From positions 1 to 20,177 of the IMG/VR virus record IMGVR_UViG_3300035670_005106: DNA of 20,177 nt; one strand, written 5' to 3'. A model generated the notes under the pieces. It ran no database searches. It had not been told where the DNA came from and saw only the letters and a list, made by a program, of their open reading frames with translations. Below, one piece after another: positions 13,116 to 16,647 of this stretch. Every line of letters starts with the position of its first letter. Position 1 is the first letter of the stretch. This DNA is from a virus. The position numbers and the translations under genes were made by a program.

Positions 13116-13331
13116 TCATTTTCCTAATCCACCTTTATAGGTTTCTTCTTTTAGTTTTTGGATTTGTTCTTTGCTAAGTAGGCGCAAGGCTTCTCTTGCT
13201 TTGGAGTCGGACAGGCCAAAGGCCAGCTTGATACATTCCAAATCATCGTTTTTTTCTGCTTTTGCCCACTTCGCAAATGGTCTTTTCATAGACCTTACGG
13301 TATTTAGTCTTTCAATGTTTTCATGAACCAT
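13116..13331 (-). CDS. Duplicated C-terminal fragment of clamp loader gp62
   Basis: 71 aa. From residue 11 on it is a near copy of the last 60 residues of gp62: VRSMKRPFAKWAKAEKN and SKAREALRLLSKEQIQ are identical in both. DNA identity is about 90% over 161 bp (13141-13301 versus 13726-13886), without gaps, and many differences are silent. The first ten residues (MVHENIERLN) overlap the end of the HNH gene and have no gp62 counterpart. There is no good Shine-Dalgarno at 13331; an internal ATG at 13289 has TAAGG just upstream and may be the real start. It is probably the displaced original 3' end of gp62, since it still abuts regA. It may be a non-functional remnant or a free C-terminal peptide; the frame is intact. 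Confidence 0.72.
   Translation of the reverse strand: MVHENIERLNTVRSMKRPFAKWAKAEKNDDLECIKLAFGLSDSKAREALRLLSKEQIQKLKEETYKGGLGK
13141..13301 (-). repeat. gp62 3' repeat, copy A (in fragment before regA)
   Basis: 161 bp that align without gaps to 13726-13886, offset 585 bp. By eye there are about 16 mismatches, about 90% identity, with one perfect run of more than 40 bases. It ends three bases from the HNH stop codon. Confidence 0.9.
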
Positions 13332-13666
13332 AGTAATTTTTCTATATCGTCAACACTACAATCGTTTTTCATTTTATTTGCTTTGAAAGATATGACTTGT
13401 ATATTTCCCTTCACATATCCTTTTTTGGGATCTATCCTATCTAATGATGGAGATTTATCTGATGGTCCTTTTCCTTTTCCTACTTCAAATTTGAAGCCAA
13501 AAACTGGACAAACATCAGGTATGTCAATGTCTTCTTTCAAAATATTGAACTCTACACCATTTTTTTCTGATCTTTTTTTTGCTCTCCACCACATACATTT
13601 TACGTAATATGTAGATATGTCTTTATATTCTTTTCTTTCTCTTTCATTAGTATTAGCGTTTCTCAT
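13304..13666 (-). CDS. HNH family homing endonuclease-like protein
   Basis: 120 aa from the ATG at 13666, chosen over the longer ORF start (13720, inside gp62) because a GGAGAA Shine-Dalgarno lies at the right distance. The core follows phage HNH nucleases of the DRIDP type: DVCPVFGFKFEVGKG (C53), SPSLDRIDPKKGYVKGN (D76-R-I-D, G83-Y-V, G87-N), then ISFKANKMKND (N97, K98). These supply the ββα-metal fold. The first cysteine is kept, while a second CxxC Cys is replaced by Phe. It lies exactly between two copies of the gp62 3' end, stopping two bases short of one of them, as a free-standing mobile gene would. Confidence 0.82.
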   Translation of the reverse strand: MRNANTNERERKEYKDISTYYVKCMWWRAKKRSEKNGVEFNILKEDIDIPDVCPVFGFKFEVGKGKGPSDKSPSLDRIDPKKGYVKGNIQVISFKANKMKNDCSVDDIEKLLWFMKTLKD

Positions 13667-13694
13667 ATTATTCTCCAGTGAGTATTTGCTAATA

Positions 13695-14087
13695 CTATTT
13701 AGTATTTTTGATTCCTCCAATTTGTGTTTCTTCTTTTAGTTGTTGGATTTGTTCTTTGCTAAGTAGGCGCAAGGCTTCTCTTGCTTTAGAATTAGACAGA
13801 CTAAAGATTAATTTGATACATTCCAAATCTTCATTTTTTTCTGCTTTTGCCCACTTCGCAAACGGTCTTTTCATAGACCTTACCGTGTAAAGCAAAAAGT
13901 CATTTTGAAGCTTTTTGTCCAGATGGTGCCTGCGGTTCATCTCATTTGCGTACAGAACACAATCTTTATGCTGAGACAATGCACGATTGGTCAGAAAGGG
14001 TTGATATTCCTTCTCAGTCAGATCATCAACAATCAGTTGCCTCTTGGACTGAAGAATGGATTTGACATACTCAAATGGATCGCTCAT
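13695..14087 (-). CDS. gp62: Clamp loader small subunit, T4 gp62 type
   Basis: 130 aa, as in the shorter gp62 of aquatic T4-like phages (T4 gp62 is 187). gp62 joins four gp44 subunits to form the clamp loader that opens gp45. The N-terminus MSDPFEYVKSILQSKRQLI and the central YANEMNRRHHLDKKLQNDF, then the basic C-terminal region with RPFAKWAKAEK and SKAREALRLLSKEQIQ, fit gp62. The start overlaps the methyltransferase stop as ATGA, with a GGAGT Shine-Dalgarno. The last 60 residues are duplicated downstream at 13116-13331. This copy ends TQIGGIKNTK while the other ends TYKGGLGK, so the tail may have been replaced when the HNH gene inserted. Confidence 0.88.
   Translation of the reverse strand: MSDPFEYVKSILQSKRQLIVDDLTEKEYQPFLTNRALSQHKDCVLYANEMNRRHHLDKKLQNDFLLYTVRSMKRPFAKWAKAEKNEDLECIKLIFSLSNSKAREALRLLSKEQIQQLKEETQIGGIKNTK
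13696..13702 (-). promoter_or_regulatory. Possible late promoter of HNH gene (CTAAATA)
   Basis: The minus strand reads ACTAAATAG at the gp62 stop, 6/8 to the T4 late consensus and an exact CTAAATA, a form seen in late promoters of T4-like cyanophages. It lies about 30 nt before the HNH ATG (13666). It is within a small palindrome (AATACTAAATAGTATT, 13691-13706), so chance is possible. Confidence 0.3.
13726..13886 (-). repeat. gp62 3' repeat, copy B (in complete gp62)
   Basis: Second copy of the 161-bp direct repeat, inside the full-length gp62. The repeat starts at the codons for TVRSM and runs to near the C-terminus. The HNH gene lies between the two copies, so the unit HNH + one copy is 585 bp. 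Confidence 0.9.
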
Positions 14088-15097
14088 TTGGACTCCATAA
14101 TTTTGTAAACTTCAGTTGTGTCTGCGCTTTTTAAATTTTTAGATGTGTCTTGTAGTGCTTGTCGTTTGCTACTCAAAACGGAAAAGACTTCAGATAAGAA
14201 ATATTGTTTATCTTTAAGTATTCTTTCAACATCATTTTTCATATCTCTTCTACCTACTTTACCAACATTCCAACATGTAACACCACCATCATTTAAATAA
14301 TCTAAAGAATTTACGATTAGTGGTTCTAGAAAAGAATTAATCCATCCATCATAATCAGAAATGTTCGTTATTGATTGTGTGTCTTCTTTACAATACACTT
14401 CTACGTCAAAATATGGTGGACTAGTCAGAATCATATCAACTTTAGGTAAGCTGTAAGCATTCATCTTTAAAGCATCGTCACAAATCAATGTTACTTTATC
14501 TTGAATGTTTAAAAATTTAACTATCTCCATCAAACCCGTATATGTCTCCGTGTTCGGTTCAAATGCAATATAGTTTGCACCGCTTGAAACAACACCCAAC
14601 ATTCTACCACCCCAACCAGCGCAAGGATCAAAAACTATTTTAGGTTTGTGATGTATGCATAATAGTTTTGCCATTTGTGGTCTGTACATTGTATTTTTAG
14701 TAAGACCGCAACAAAAATAAATTCCTCTTTTAATTTCTGATAAGTATGGCGTACTATGGCTTTTTCTGTTCCATCTTAGTATTTTTTCCAAATTGTCAGC
14801 AGTCCAACTGTTAGAAAAACTTTTACCTTTATTGTTTTCAATGTCATAAAAATTTGGAAAATAATGTTCACAAAGTTTCATACCAATTCTTGATGTTGAA
14901 TTTATGTAATCATCTTTTGAGTTCCACTTACATAAATTATTCCAATCAGTTCTCAATTGTTGATCAGAATATTTTGATATAAAACTAATATTTTCTAACT
15001 GAGAAGCAAGTGTTGCGACAACAGATTCAAATTCAATATCATTTAACTTTCGTGTGGTATTTCTAATATTCAAAAAATTATGGATATTTACATCCAT
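14084..15097 (-). CDS. DNA methyltransferase (TSPPY type), likely restriction-modification partner
   Basis: 337 aa. Motif I is VFDPCAGWGGRMLG (156-168), an acidic motif II residue is E180 (YIAFEPNT), and motif III is CDDAL (about 207-211). The catalytic motif IV is TSPPY (225-229), which marks an N4-cytosine or N6-adenine DNA methyltransferase. The N-terminal 140 residues include a region ending MYRPQMAKLLC that probably contains target recognition; the family is not recognised beyond this. The preceding gene (15088-15669) is a PD-(D/E)XK-like nuclease that overlaps by 10 nt. The stop overlaps gp62 as ATGA. The region is visibly AT-richer than its replication neighbours, consistent with transfer. 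Confidence 0.85.
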   Translation of the reverse strand: MDVNIHNFLNIRNTTRKLNDIEFESVVATLASQLENISFISKYSDQQLRTDWNNLCKWNSKDDYINSTSRIGMKLCEHYFPNFYDIENNKGKSFSNSWTADNLEKILRWNRKSHSTPYLSEIKRGIYFCCGLTKNTMYRPQMAKLLCIHHKPKIVFDPCAGWGGRMLGVVSSGANYIAFEPNTETYTGLMEIVKFLNIQDKVTLICDDALKMNAYSLPKVDMILTSPPYFDVEVYCKEDTQSITNISDYDGWINSFLEPLIVNSLDYLNDGGVTCWNVGKVGRRDMKNDVERILKDKQYFLSEVFSVLSSKRQALQDTSKNLKSADTTEVYKIMESK

Positions 15098-15669
15098 AGT
15101 TCAACCCCTATCTTTTTTATACCATCTTTCATCCACACACTCATTTCTTGTAAAATTTTAGCGGTTTCTAGCTTAGAATAATCACTGGAAAACATGTAGT
15201 CATCATTTTCACTATTTTTACCTCCTTGTTGATGCTTGAAAACGCAATTGTTTGAGTTTATATTTTTAACAAAATCTTCTTTGCATATCCAATTTATACG
15301 AAAATGATCATTTGGATTTACGCCAAGTAATATTAATCTCTCCCAATCTTTATGACATGCAAGATGATTAAACGTAAAATAGTCTGTTTTCATACTTAAA
15401 CTGAACTTGATTTCAGTTTTGTATCCATCAATTATTCTATCATGCTCCCTATTTCTTCTTGGATAAACTTCACTACCTTTTTTTTGCATTATCTTAGACA
15501 CTAAAATTTCACCAAAAGCTCCCATTTGTGTGTTTGAGAGTTTTAAGTATCCTTCATATTGCGTCCCAATCCAAGGATCATCAATATCAATCCTTGATTT
15601 CACGTAATTATGAAGAACACCGTCTTCAAAAAATTCATTTAAAGACACAATATTTTGATCGTGTTTCAT
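15088..15669 (-). CDS. PD-(D/E)XK-like restriction endonuclease candidate
   Basis: 193 aa. MGAFGEILVSKIMQKKG (E54 on a helix), then REHDRIID (D77, D81) and TEIKFS (E86-I-K88) give the E...D-x-ExK layout of the PD-(D/E)XK fold, like many type II restriction enzymes. The protein is small, basic in the centre and soluble. It lies between gp44 (ATGA overlap) and a TSPPY DNA methyltransferase (10-nt overlap). That gene order and coupling is what makes a restriction endonuclease the best reading. A lone homing-type nuclease protected by the neighbouring methylase would be an alternative. The recognition site cannot be derived from the sequence. Confidence 0.72.
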   Translation of the reverse strand: MKHDQNIVSLNEFFEDGVLHNYVKSRIDIDDPWIGTQYEGYLKLSNTQMGAFGEILVSKIMQKKGSEVYPRRNREHDRIIDGYKTEIKFSLSMKTDYFTFNHLACHKDWERLILLGVNPNDHFRINWICKEDFVKNINSNNCVFKHQQGGKNSENDDYMFSSDYSKLETAKILQEMSVWMKDGIKKIGVELWM

Positions 15670-16595
15670 TTGAATTCCACATTTGCCATCAGTTCAGTCA
15701 GACAAGCAACAAGATTGATCTCTTGATCAGCAACAAATGCTTGTTTGTATTGATAGTCAGCAAGAATGATCACTGCTTGTGGAATACTCTGAGGCTTTGC
15801 GATATCATACAAAGCATCATAGAGTTTACGAAAGAATGTCGTGCTATCAATTTCGGTTGTTGCTGCCCATTTACGGACGGATGCAAAGTCTTTTTCTTTC
15901 AGATGTTTGACAATCTGTGAAATAGAAATGTCACCAATCTGAGAGAGGATGCCCACATCAATCTTGCCGAGTTGAGAGTAGCGTTGAAGTTCATTAATAG
16001 CACGACGAAAATCTGGAAAGTGTTTCTTGATAAGTTCAGCAATCACTTTCTCATCATATTCAACTTTTTCTGTGTTTAGTATGTGTGTGATGCGTTTAAA
16101 AAACGCAGATGCCATTTTTGTTTTTTCACCATTCTGCAAACGAAAATCAATTACAGCACACCGACTGTGCAGTGGCTCAATGATTCTGCTTTTGAAATTA
16201 CAAGTGAAAATGAATGAACAGTTTACTGCAAACTCTTCAATGGCATTTCTTAGAATTGCTTGTGCGTTTGGTGTAAGATAATCGGCTTCATCTAGAATGA
16301 CAACTTTACGACCACCAGTAAACGACATTGCAGATGCATAGTTTTTGATTTTTACACGAATTGTATCAACACCATTCTCATCAGAACCATTGAGAATCAT
16401 GAAGTCGCAACCGATCTCGTTGCACATTGCTTTGGCGATTGTTGTCTTGCCTACGCCCGCTCCACCAGTCAGAAGCAGATTGGGTATCTGCTTCTGATTT
16501 ACATATTCCTGAAAAACTTCTTTCAGACGATCTGGTAGAATACAGTCGTTTATTACTTGTGGTCTGTAACGTTCCGTCCACAGAAGATGTTCCAT
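15666..16595 (-). CDS. gp44: Clamp loader large subunit (AAA+), T4 gp44 type
   Basis: 309 aa (T4 gp44 is 319). It is an ATPase that, with gp62, loads the gp45 clamp. Walker A is GGAGVGKTT (44-52), Walker B VVILDEAD (98-105), sensor-1 FIFTCNFKSRI, and the SRC motif PLHSRC with the arginine finger at R145. The N-terminal WTERYRPQ is the usual clamp-loader start. The start has a GAGGAAAC Shine-Dalgarno and lies 24 nt after the -10 box of a perfect sigma70 promoter (16619-16647). The stop overlaps the nuclease start as ATGA; in T4 this position is taken by gp62. Confidence 0.98.
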   Translation of the reverse strand: MEHLLWTERYRPQVINDCILPDRLKEVFQEYVNQKQIPNLLLTGGAGVGKTTIAKAMCNEIGCDFMILNGSDENGVDTIRVKIKNYASAMSFTGGRKVVILDEADYLTPNAQAILRNAIEEFAVNCSFIFTCNFKSRIIEPLHSRCAVIDFRLQNGEKTKMASAFFKRITHILNTEKVEYDEKVIAELIKKHFPDFRRAINELQRYSQLGKIDVGILSQIGDISISQIVKHLKEKDFASVRKWAATTEIDSTTFFRKLYDALYDIAKPQSIPQAVIILADYQYKQAFVADQEINLVACLTELMANVEFK

Positions 16596-16618: not shown

Positions 16619-16647
16619 ATTATAAAAGACAATCGTTAGAATGTCAA
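16619..16647 (-). promoter_or_regulatory. gp44: Perfect-consensus sigma70 promoter of the gp44 operon
   Basis: The minus strand reads TTGACA (16647-16642), 17 bp, then TATAAT (16624-16619): both hexamers and spacing are ideal. The start would be near 16612, giving a short leader with the GAGGAAAC Shine-Dalgarno of gp44 (ATG at 16595). It drives gp44, the nuclease/methyltransferase pair, gp62, HNH, the gp62 fragment and regA. Confidence 0.82.

Follow-up and report, generated by a model that had tools for sequence, protein, structure and literature searches.

A predicted nuclease-methyltransferase pair inserted between the clamp-loader genes of a T4-like phage behaves like a type II restriction-modification system

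Why should a nuclease gene and a DNA methyltransferase gene lie between the two clamp-loader genes of a T4-like phage? The question is raised by the viral record IMGVR_UViG_3300035670_005106, a stretch of 20,177 bp referred to here in its entirety as the window, which is a fragment of the replication region of a lake-type T4-like bacterial virus and carries gp45, gp44, gp62, regA, Hsp20 and gp43 on its minus strand. The genes for the clamp-loader large subunit, gp44 (15666-16595; Gp44_lid match), and small subunit, gp62 (13695-14087; PF16790, Phage_clamp_A, 6.6e-11; phrog_225, 2.8e-39), form the left and right flanks of a two-gene cassette on the same strand. Its genes are NUC (15088-15669), encoding a PD-(D/E)XK nuclease of 193 aa that is the predicted restriction endonuclease of the pair, and MT (14084-15097), encoding an amino-methyltransferase of 337 aa that is the predicted cognate methylase. 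An earlier note, made from these letters alone, had described all of the gene junctions as overlapping, and on the minus strand gp44 and NUC do share a 4 nt ATGA (15666-15669), NUC and MT 10 nt (15088-15097) and MT and gp62 a further 4 nt ATGA (14084-14087). Both ATGA overlaps coincide with the ends of the cassette as defined by comparison with the empty site of a related phage (L101), and the 10 nt NUC/MT overlap is also present in L012-L021, L139, L194 and L237. A sigma70-type promoter consensus, TTGACA-17-TATAAT (16619-16647, minus strand), precedes the gp44 start by about 24 nt and reads into gp44-NUC-MT-gp62; the perfect promoter proposed in the earlier note holds as a 12/12 consensus match. 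The cassette is AT-rich, with a GC content of 30.8% compared with 37.7-39.1% for gp62 and gp44, which weakly suggests a foreign origin given that regA is likewise low in GC (32.3%). The 3' end of MT, ATGGAGTCCAAATGA (14084-14098), resembles that of gp44, GTGGAATTCAAATGA (15666-15680), at 12/15 positions on the minus strand; this likeness, absent in L012, is a possible insertion footprint.

A profile search assigned NUC to phrog_6927 (2.9e-44), and it matches the PADLOC family REase_II PDLC03515 (4.3e-14). Pfam and NCBIfam gave no significant match and PDB sequence profiles no meaningful one, and no bacterial or plasmid relatives were found at the sensitivities used. A pattern scan of genome contigs returned 58 matching stretches, none of which was a NUC relative, although it relied on two short patterns and could have missed distant relatives. 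The structure was predicted with AF2 from an alignment of the window and the viral-contig loci alone, giving a model with a pLDDT of 85.7 and a pTM of 0.84, in which E54 lies on the first long helix, E86 and K88 on a later strand and D77 just ahead of the strand preceding that one, an arrangement as in PD-(D/E)XK enzymes. The PD-(D/E)XK core claimed for this protein is therefore borne out by the model and by its comparison with PDB structures. Of the catalytic residues named with that claim, D77, E86 and K88 are invariant among 26 aligned sequences, in which E54 reaches at least 90% conservation; D81, offered as an alternative to D77, is not an invariant column, and for this reason D77 is the likely metal ligand. 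Foldseek ranked EcoRV and NhoI/Eco15I at the top, and pairwise alignment with VIA-align gave the highest Z score for the homing enzyme I-Ssp6803I (Z 9.3, rmsd 3.4, 121 residues aligned), followed by Eco15I (Z 9.0, rmsd 3.2, 114), NhoI (Z 8.8, rmsd 4.0, 126) and the resolvase Hjc (Z 8.1, rmsd 3.0, 104). Scores no more than 1 Z apart count as tied, so the fold cannot tell restriction from homing or resolvase activity. Together, the fold, the E54/D77/E86/K88 residues and the REase_II match are those of a restriction-type catalytic core. The cyanophage homing enzyme F-CphI was considered as a counterpart of NUC and rejected, as it has an Endo VII motif and not a PD-(D/E)XK one (PMC6083498).

MT has the intact motifs of a DNA methyltransferase. 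It matches PF01555 at 2.4e-6, above the gathering score, and carries motif I (DPCAGWGG) ahead of motif IV (TSPPY). TSPPY (225-229), the motif on which the earlier note had identified the protein, is invariant among 23 MT sequences, as is most of DPCAGWGGR (157-165). The AF2 model shows a class-I fold whose N-terminal part is helical, and a structure search with it recovered generic class-I methyltransferases only, which do not separate m4C from m6A activity. An RNA methylase was considered, but the Pfam and NCBIfam matches of this kind are weak, and TSPPY and the pairing with a nuclease argue for DNA as the substrate. Nor does MT resemble an orphan phage methyltransferase, as it overlaps NUC in the window and in nearly all of its relatives the gene directly upstream is nuclease-like. 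In L093 (4760-7014) and L094, the window-type MT is preceded by a second SPPY-containing methyltransferase-like ORF and not by a nuclease. For NUC and MT relatives dN/dS was 0.09-0.29, with 0.52 in one short N-terminal MT comparison, and both genes are under purifying selection. The two reading frames are not chance products, because their relatives retain the motifs, because of these dN/dS values and because 25 relatives have gp44 and gp62 directly overlapping by ATGA.

Those 25 empty junctions come from a survey of relatives in which both flanks could be read. In others the junction is filled by inserts of 277-2011 nt, and across L101-L180 and the NUC loci these encode T5orf172/GIY-YIG nucleases, endonuclease VII, further PD-(D/E)XK-like proteins, NUC alone or NUC with MT; another insert is a gene for a 95-aa small membrane-protein-like product. 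Phages that match the window at 91-99% identity across most of the last 800 nt of gp44 have an empty junction (L101, L103), a GIY-YIG gene (L102) or an endonuclease VII gene (L106). Against the empty site of L101, to which the window is 94-98% identical at the nucleotide level over those 800 nt, the insert falls exactly between the two ATGA overlaps. As near-identical phages have empty or differently filled junctions, the site is a nuclease hotspot with a fast turnover, in keeping with the suggestion that the cassette is mobile and not fixed in its relatives; it may be likened to the clusters that homing-endonuclease genes form near essential phage genes (PMC10448857). The earlier note had also offered long adaptation as one reading of the seamless fit, and this does not stand: most junction inserts start with an ATGA overlap on gp44, and many also overlap gp62 at their far end. 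The fit thus reflects the site, through translational coupling in the operon, and not a long adaptation of this pair. Elsewhere at gp44/gp62, three marine cyanophages (S-RIM32, S-H9-2 and ACG-2014b; L001-L003) carry unrelated DNA methylase genes without NUC, and a Pelagibacter phage carries an Fe2OG dioxygenase gene.

A second element has entered the same operon. An HNH endonuclease gene (13304-13720, minus strand) has a full-length gp62 on one side and a repeat of the gp62 3' end (13116-13331, minus strand) on the other, and the arrangement (13116-14087 as a whole, minus strand) recurs in seven other contigs (L260-L266). Of the two 3' ends the downstream one is native, since it is closer to the gp62 3' end of L101 (91.2% identity compared with 84.7% for the upstream copy) and regA begins 1 nt after it, as it does in most relatives with an empty junction. 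The upstream copies of the window, L260, L261 and L264 share the ending GG(I/L)KNTK, which was not seen in native ends, and together with the native downstream tail this indicates that the HNH element appears to bring a recoded replacement gp62 3' end. Mobile elements in fungal mitochondrial genes likewise bring replacement gene ends.

The main new result is that NUC and MT behave, as judged from their distribution, like a type II restriction-modification system, the pairing that the earlier note had put forward. NUC relatives were collected by NUC similarity and grouped at 90% identity into 36 clusters, and in 22 of these a Pfam-checked methyltransferase gene starts within a range of -10 to +70 nt relative to the end of NUC, taken at its stop codon; by comparison, an adjacent methyltransferase was present at 0/30 control loci drawn from the family of the adjacent HNH nuclease. 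Three methyltransferase families serve as partners (8 window-type, 6 DPPY and 8 DLPYG). The pair occupies gp44/gp62 in the window, L011-L021, L139, L194 and L237, lies upstream of the gp45 gene in L042 and is present in unrelated phages (L066, L068, L075, L080, L085-L092 and L095), at unrelated loci and on contigs of up to 348 kb. With the 10 nt overlap, the two genes thus show the adjacency and co-inheritance of a type II system. Seen from the methyltransferase, nearly every window-type MT has directly upstream a nuclease-like gene of about 200 aa that belongs to the NUC family, to an 'EVKP' family with a conserved E..D..E-x-K or to a 'KSG' family with an invariant E..D..K, the latter two being assigned as nucleases by motif only. 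The partners are mixed and matched, as the identity of the partner nuclease requires 8 changes on the MT tree. For example, L050 (1418-1990) and L052 (2040-2636) hold unrelated nuclease-like genes between upstream DNA that is 96.8% identical and MT genes that are 99.0% identical, and a swap of the same kind is seen between L063 and L055 (flanks 87.7% and 96.2%), the L055 gene not being classified separately. Chimeric assembly was rejected as the source of these swaps because every arrangement is represented by several contigs drawn from different metagenomes. The simplest reason for them would be that one methylase protects against all of the exchanged nucleases, as expected if these share a target. 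At gp44/gp62, NUC of L139 is only 36% identical to that of the window and MT 68%, L237 being similar with an MT of 69%, and between the window and L012 dS is 0.31 for NUC, 1.18 for MT and 0.70 for gp44; both observations fit a nuclease gene with a higher rate of exchange than that of its methylase.

The remaining 14/36 clusters lack an adjacent methyltransferase, and most of them keep E54, D77, E86 and K88. A clade without MT at gp44/gp62 (L022-L029) carries the substitutions E54Q and R78K and is still under purifying selection, which looks like the disarming or reuse of a nuclease that lacks its methylase. NUC also lies at this junction without a window-type MT in L030, L031, L032 and L241. 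The loci of L031 (850-1575) and L032 (54-788) have a different methyltransferase-like ORF upstream at the junction (phrog_15480, 2e-4). All four complete cyanophage genomes with a solo NUC carry a Dam-type methyltransferase elsewhere, but such genes are common in cyanophages, and this is weak evidence for a partner acting in trans. The solo NUC genes are the main weakness of the restriction-modification reading and the main support for homing.

We propose, and consider it probable, that NUC and MT together form a phage-borne type II restriction-modification pair that has settled at a hotspot of homing endonucleases. NUC, as a predicted PD-(D/E)XK endonuclease, would cut a short unmethylated sequence, and MT would methylate an amino group within that target; both would share a transcript with the early clamp-loader genes, their translation being coupled to that of these genes. 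The DNA packaged in the phage would arrive already methylated, having been marked in the previous cycle, and the nuclease-first gene order might be harmless to the phage for this reason. We infer that NUC would then harm only unmarked DNA, namely the host chromosome and unmarked co-infecting phages, with MT probably shielding the virus's own DNA, and cuts in unmarked relatives could also spread the cassette by recombination. Interference with a co-infecting phage has been described for an intron-encoded homing enzyme of phage PhiPA3 (PMC11620839). A bolder version, to which we give only tentative credence, is that in aquatic phages the conserved MT is an immunity gene with interchangeable nucleases, and that the arrangement serves a multi-site, methylation-guarded homing of the linked segment and not host defence. 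With the carrier genome marked by MT, each nuclease would be free to cut unmarked relatives in the same cell at many sites, and its segment would spread through recombination.

Another explanation is that NUC is a free-standing homing endonuclease whose target is gp44/gp62 in its insert-free form or some other site in the clamp-loader genes, with MT as a passenger or a methylase of separate use. T5orf172/GIY-YIG, endonuclease VII and several PD-(D/E)XK-like genes share this hotspot, and homing genes are known to gather near essential phage genes (PMC10448857); empty sites exist, NUC is found there without a window-type MT in L022-L032 and L241, and I-Ssp6803I gave the highest structural score, tied within 1 Z with the next enzymes. 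However, relatives of NUC also occupy many unrelated loci, a methyltransferase follows NUC directly in 22/36 clusters as against 0/30 for the HNH homing-type family, and an interchange of nuclease families before a single MT clade is not what homing produces, and we therefore regard homing alone as unlikely. Less likely still is that the two proteins have different targets, with MT guarding phage DNA from host restriction and NUC degrading host DNA or serving recombination, for example as a junction resolvase. Solitary methyltransferases are common in phages (PMC4176335), NUC matches Hjc with a Z of about 8 and cyanophages have unrelated methyltransferases at the junction without NUC, but this leaves unexplained the repeated tight pairing with three methyltransferase families and the swaps before near-identical MTs. 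It would be very surprising if NUC were a modification-dependent nuclease of the BisI/DpnI kind that attacks methylated rival or host DNA: NhoI, Eco15I and DpnI rank among its nearest structural neighbours and a virus-borne example exists in HHPV4I (PMC10101028), but a linked and co-expressed MT would expose the phage's own DNA unless the specificities differ.

The modular pairing of a nuclease with a methylase recurs in many aquatic phages, including T4-like ones and those on contigs of up to 348 kb. Restriction and homing, which are usually separate fields, meet here at one defined site. Matched natural variants are at hand, with an empty junction, the pair, another nuclease or a catalytically altered solo NUC, and bear on competition between phages and on the takeover of host DNA.

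The pair shares features with several known systems. In chloroviruses such as PBCV-1 and NY-2A the gene of a site-specific endonuclease adjoins a methyltransferase gene, the virus modifies its own DNA and that of the host is reported to be broken down early (PMC7019647); the likeness lies in a virus-encoded predicted endonuclease next to a methyltransferase. Chloroviruses, however, infect eukaryotic algae and package the restriction endonuclease in the virion, whereas the present pair belongs to a bacterial T4-like phage and sits inside the clamp-loader operon, with the nuclease family swapped before a constant methylase. As in bacterial type II systems, a PD-(D/E)XK nuclease with a REase_II PDLC03515 match adjoins an amino-methyltransferase, but the nuclease gene comes first and there is no sign of a controller or a delay; complete restriction-modification systems have been reported to be nearly absent from phages (PMC4176335). 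Like the free-standing homing endonucleases of T4-like phages (Seg, Mob), NUC lies beside an essential replication gene, is polymorphic for presence and absence and shares its site with other families (PMC2988022, PMC10448857), yet unlike them the cassette carries a methyltransferase and occurs at many unrelated loci. The nuclease family itself is on record as phrog_6927 and as cyanophage cluster T4-GC 685, of which the P-SSM7 member is followed directly by two DNA methylase genes; these records are annotated as hypothetical or 'restriction endonuclease' and do not describe the pairing or the junction context. Virus-borne restriction-modification is thus already known, and what is unusual here is its setting in a clamp-loader operon, together with the modular exchange of its nuclease.
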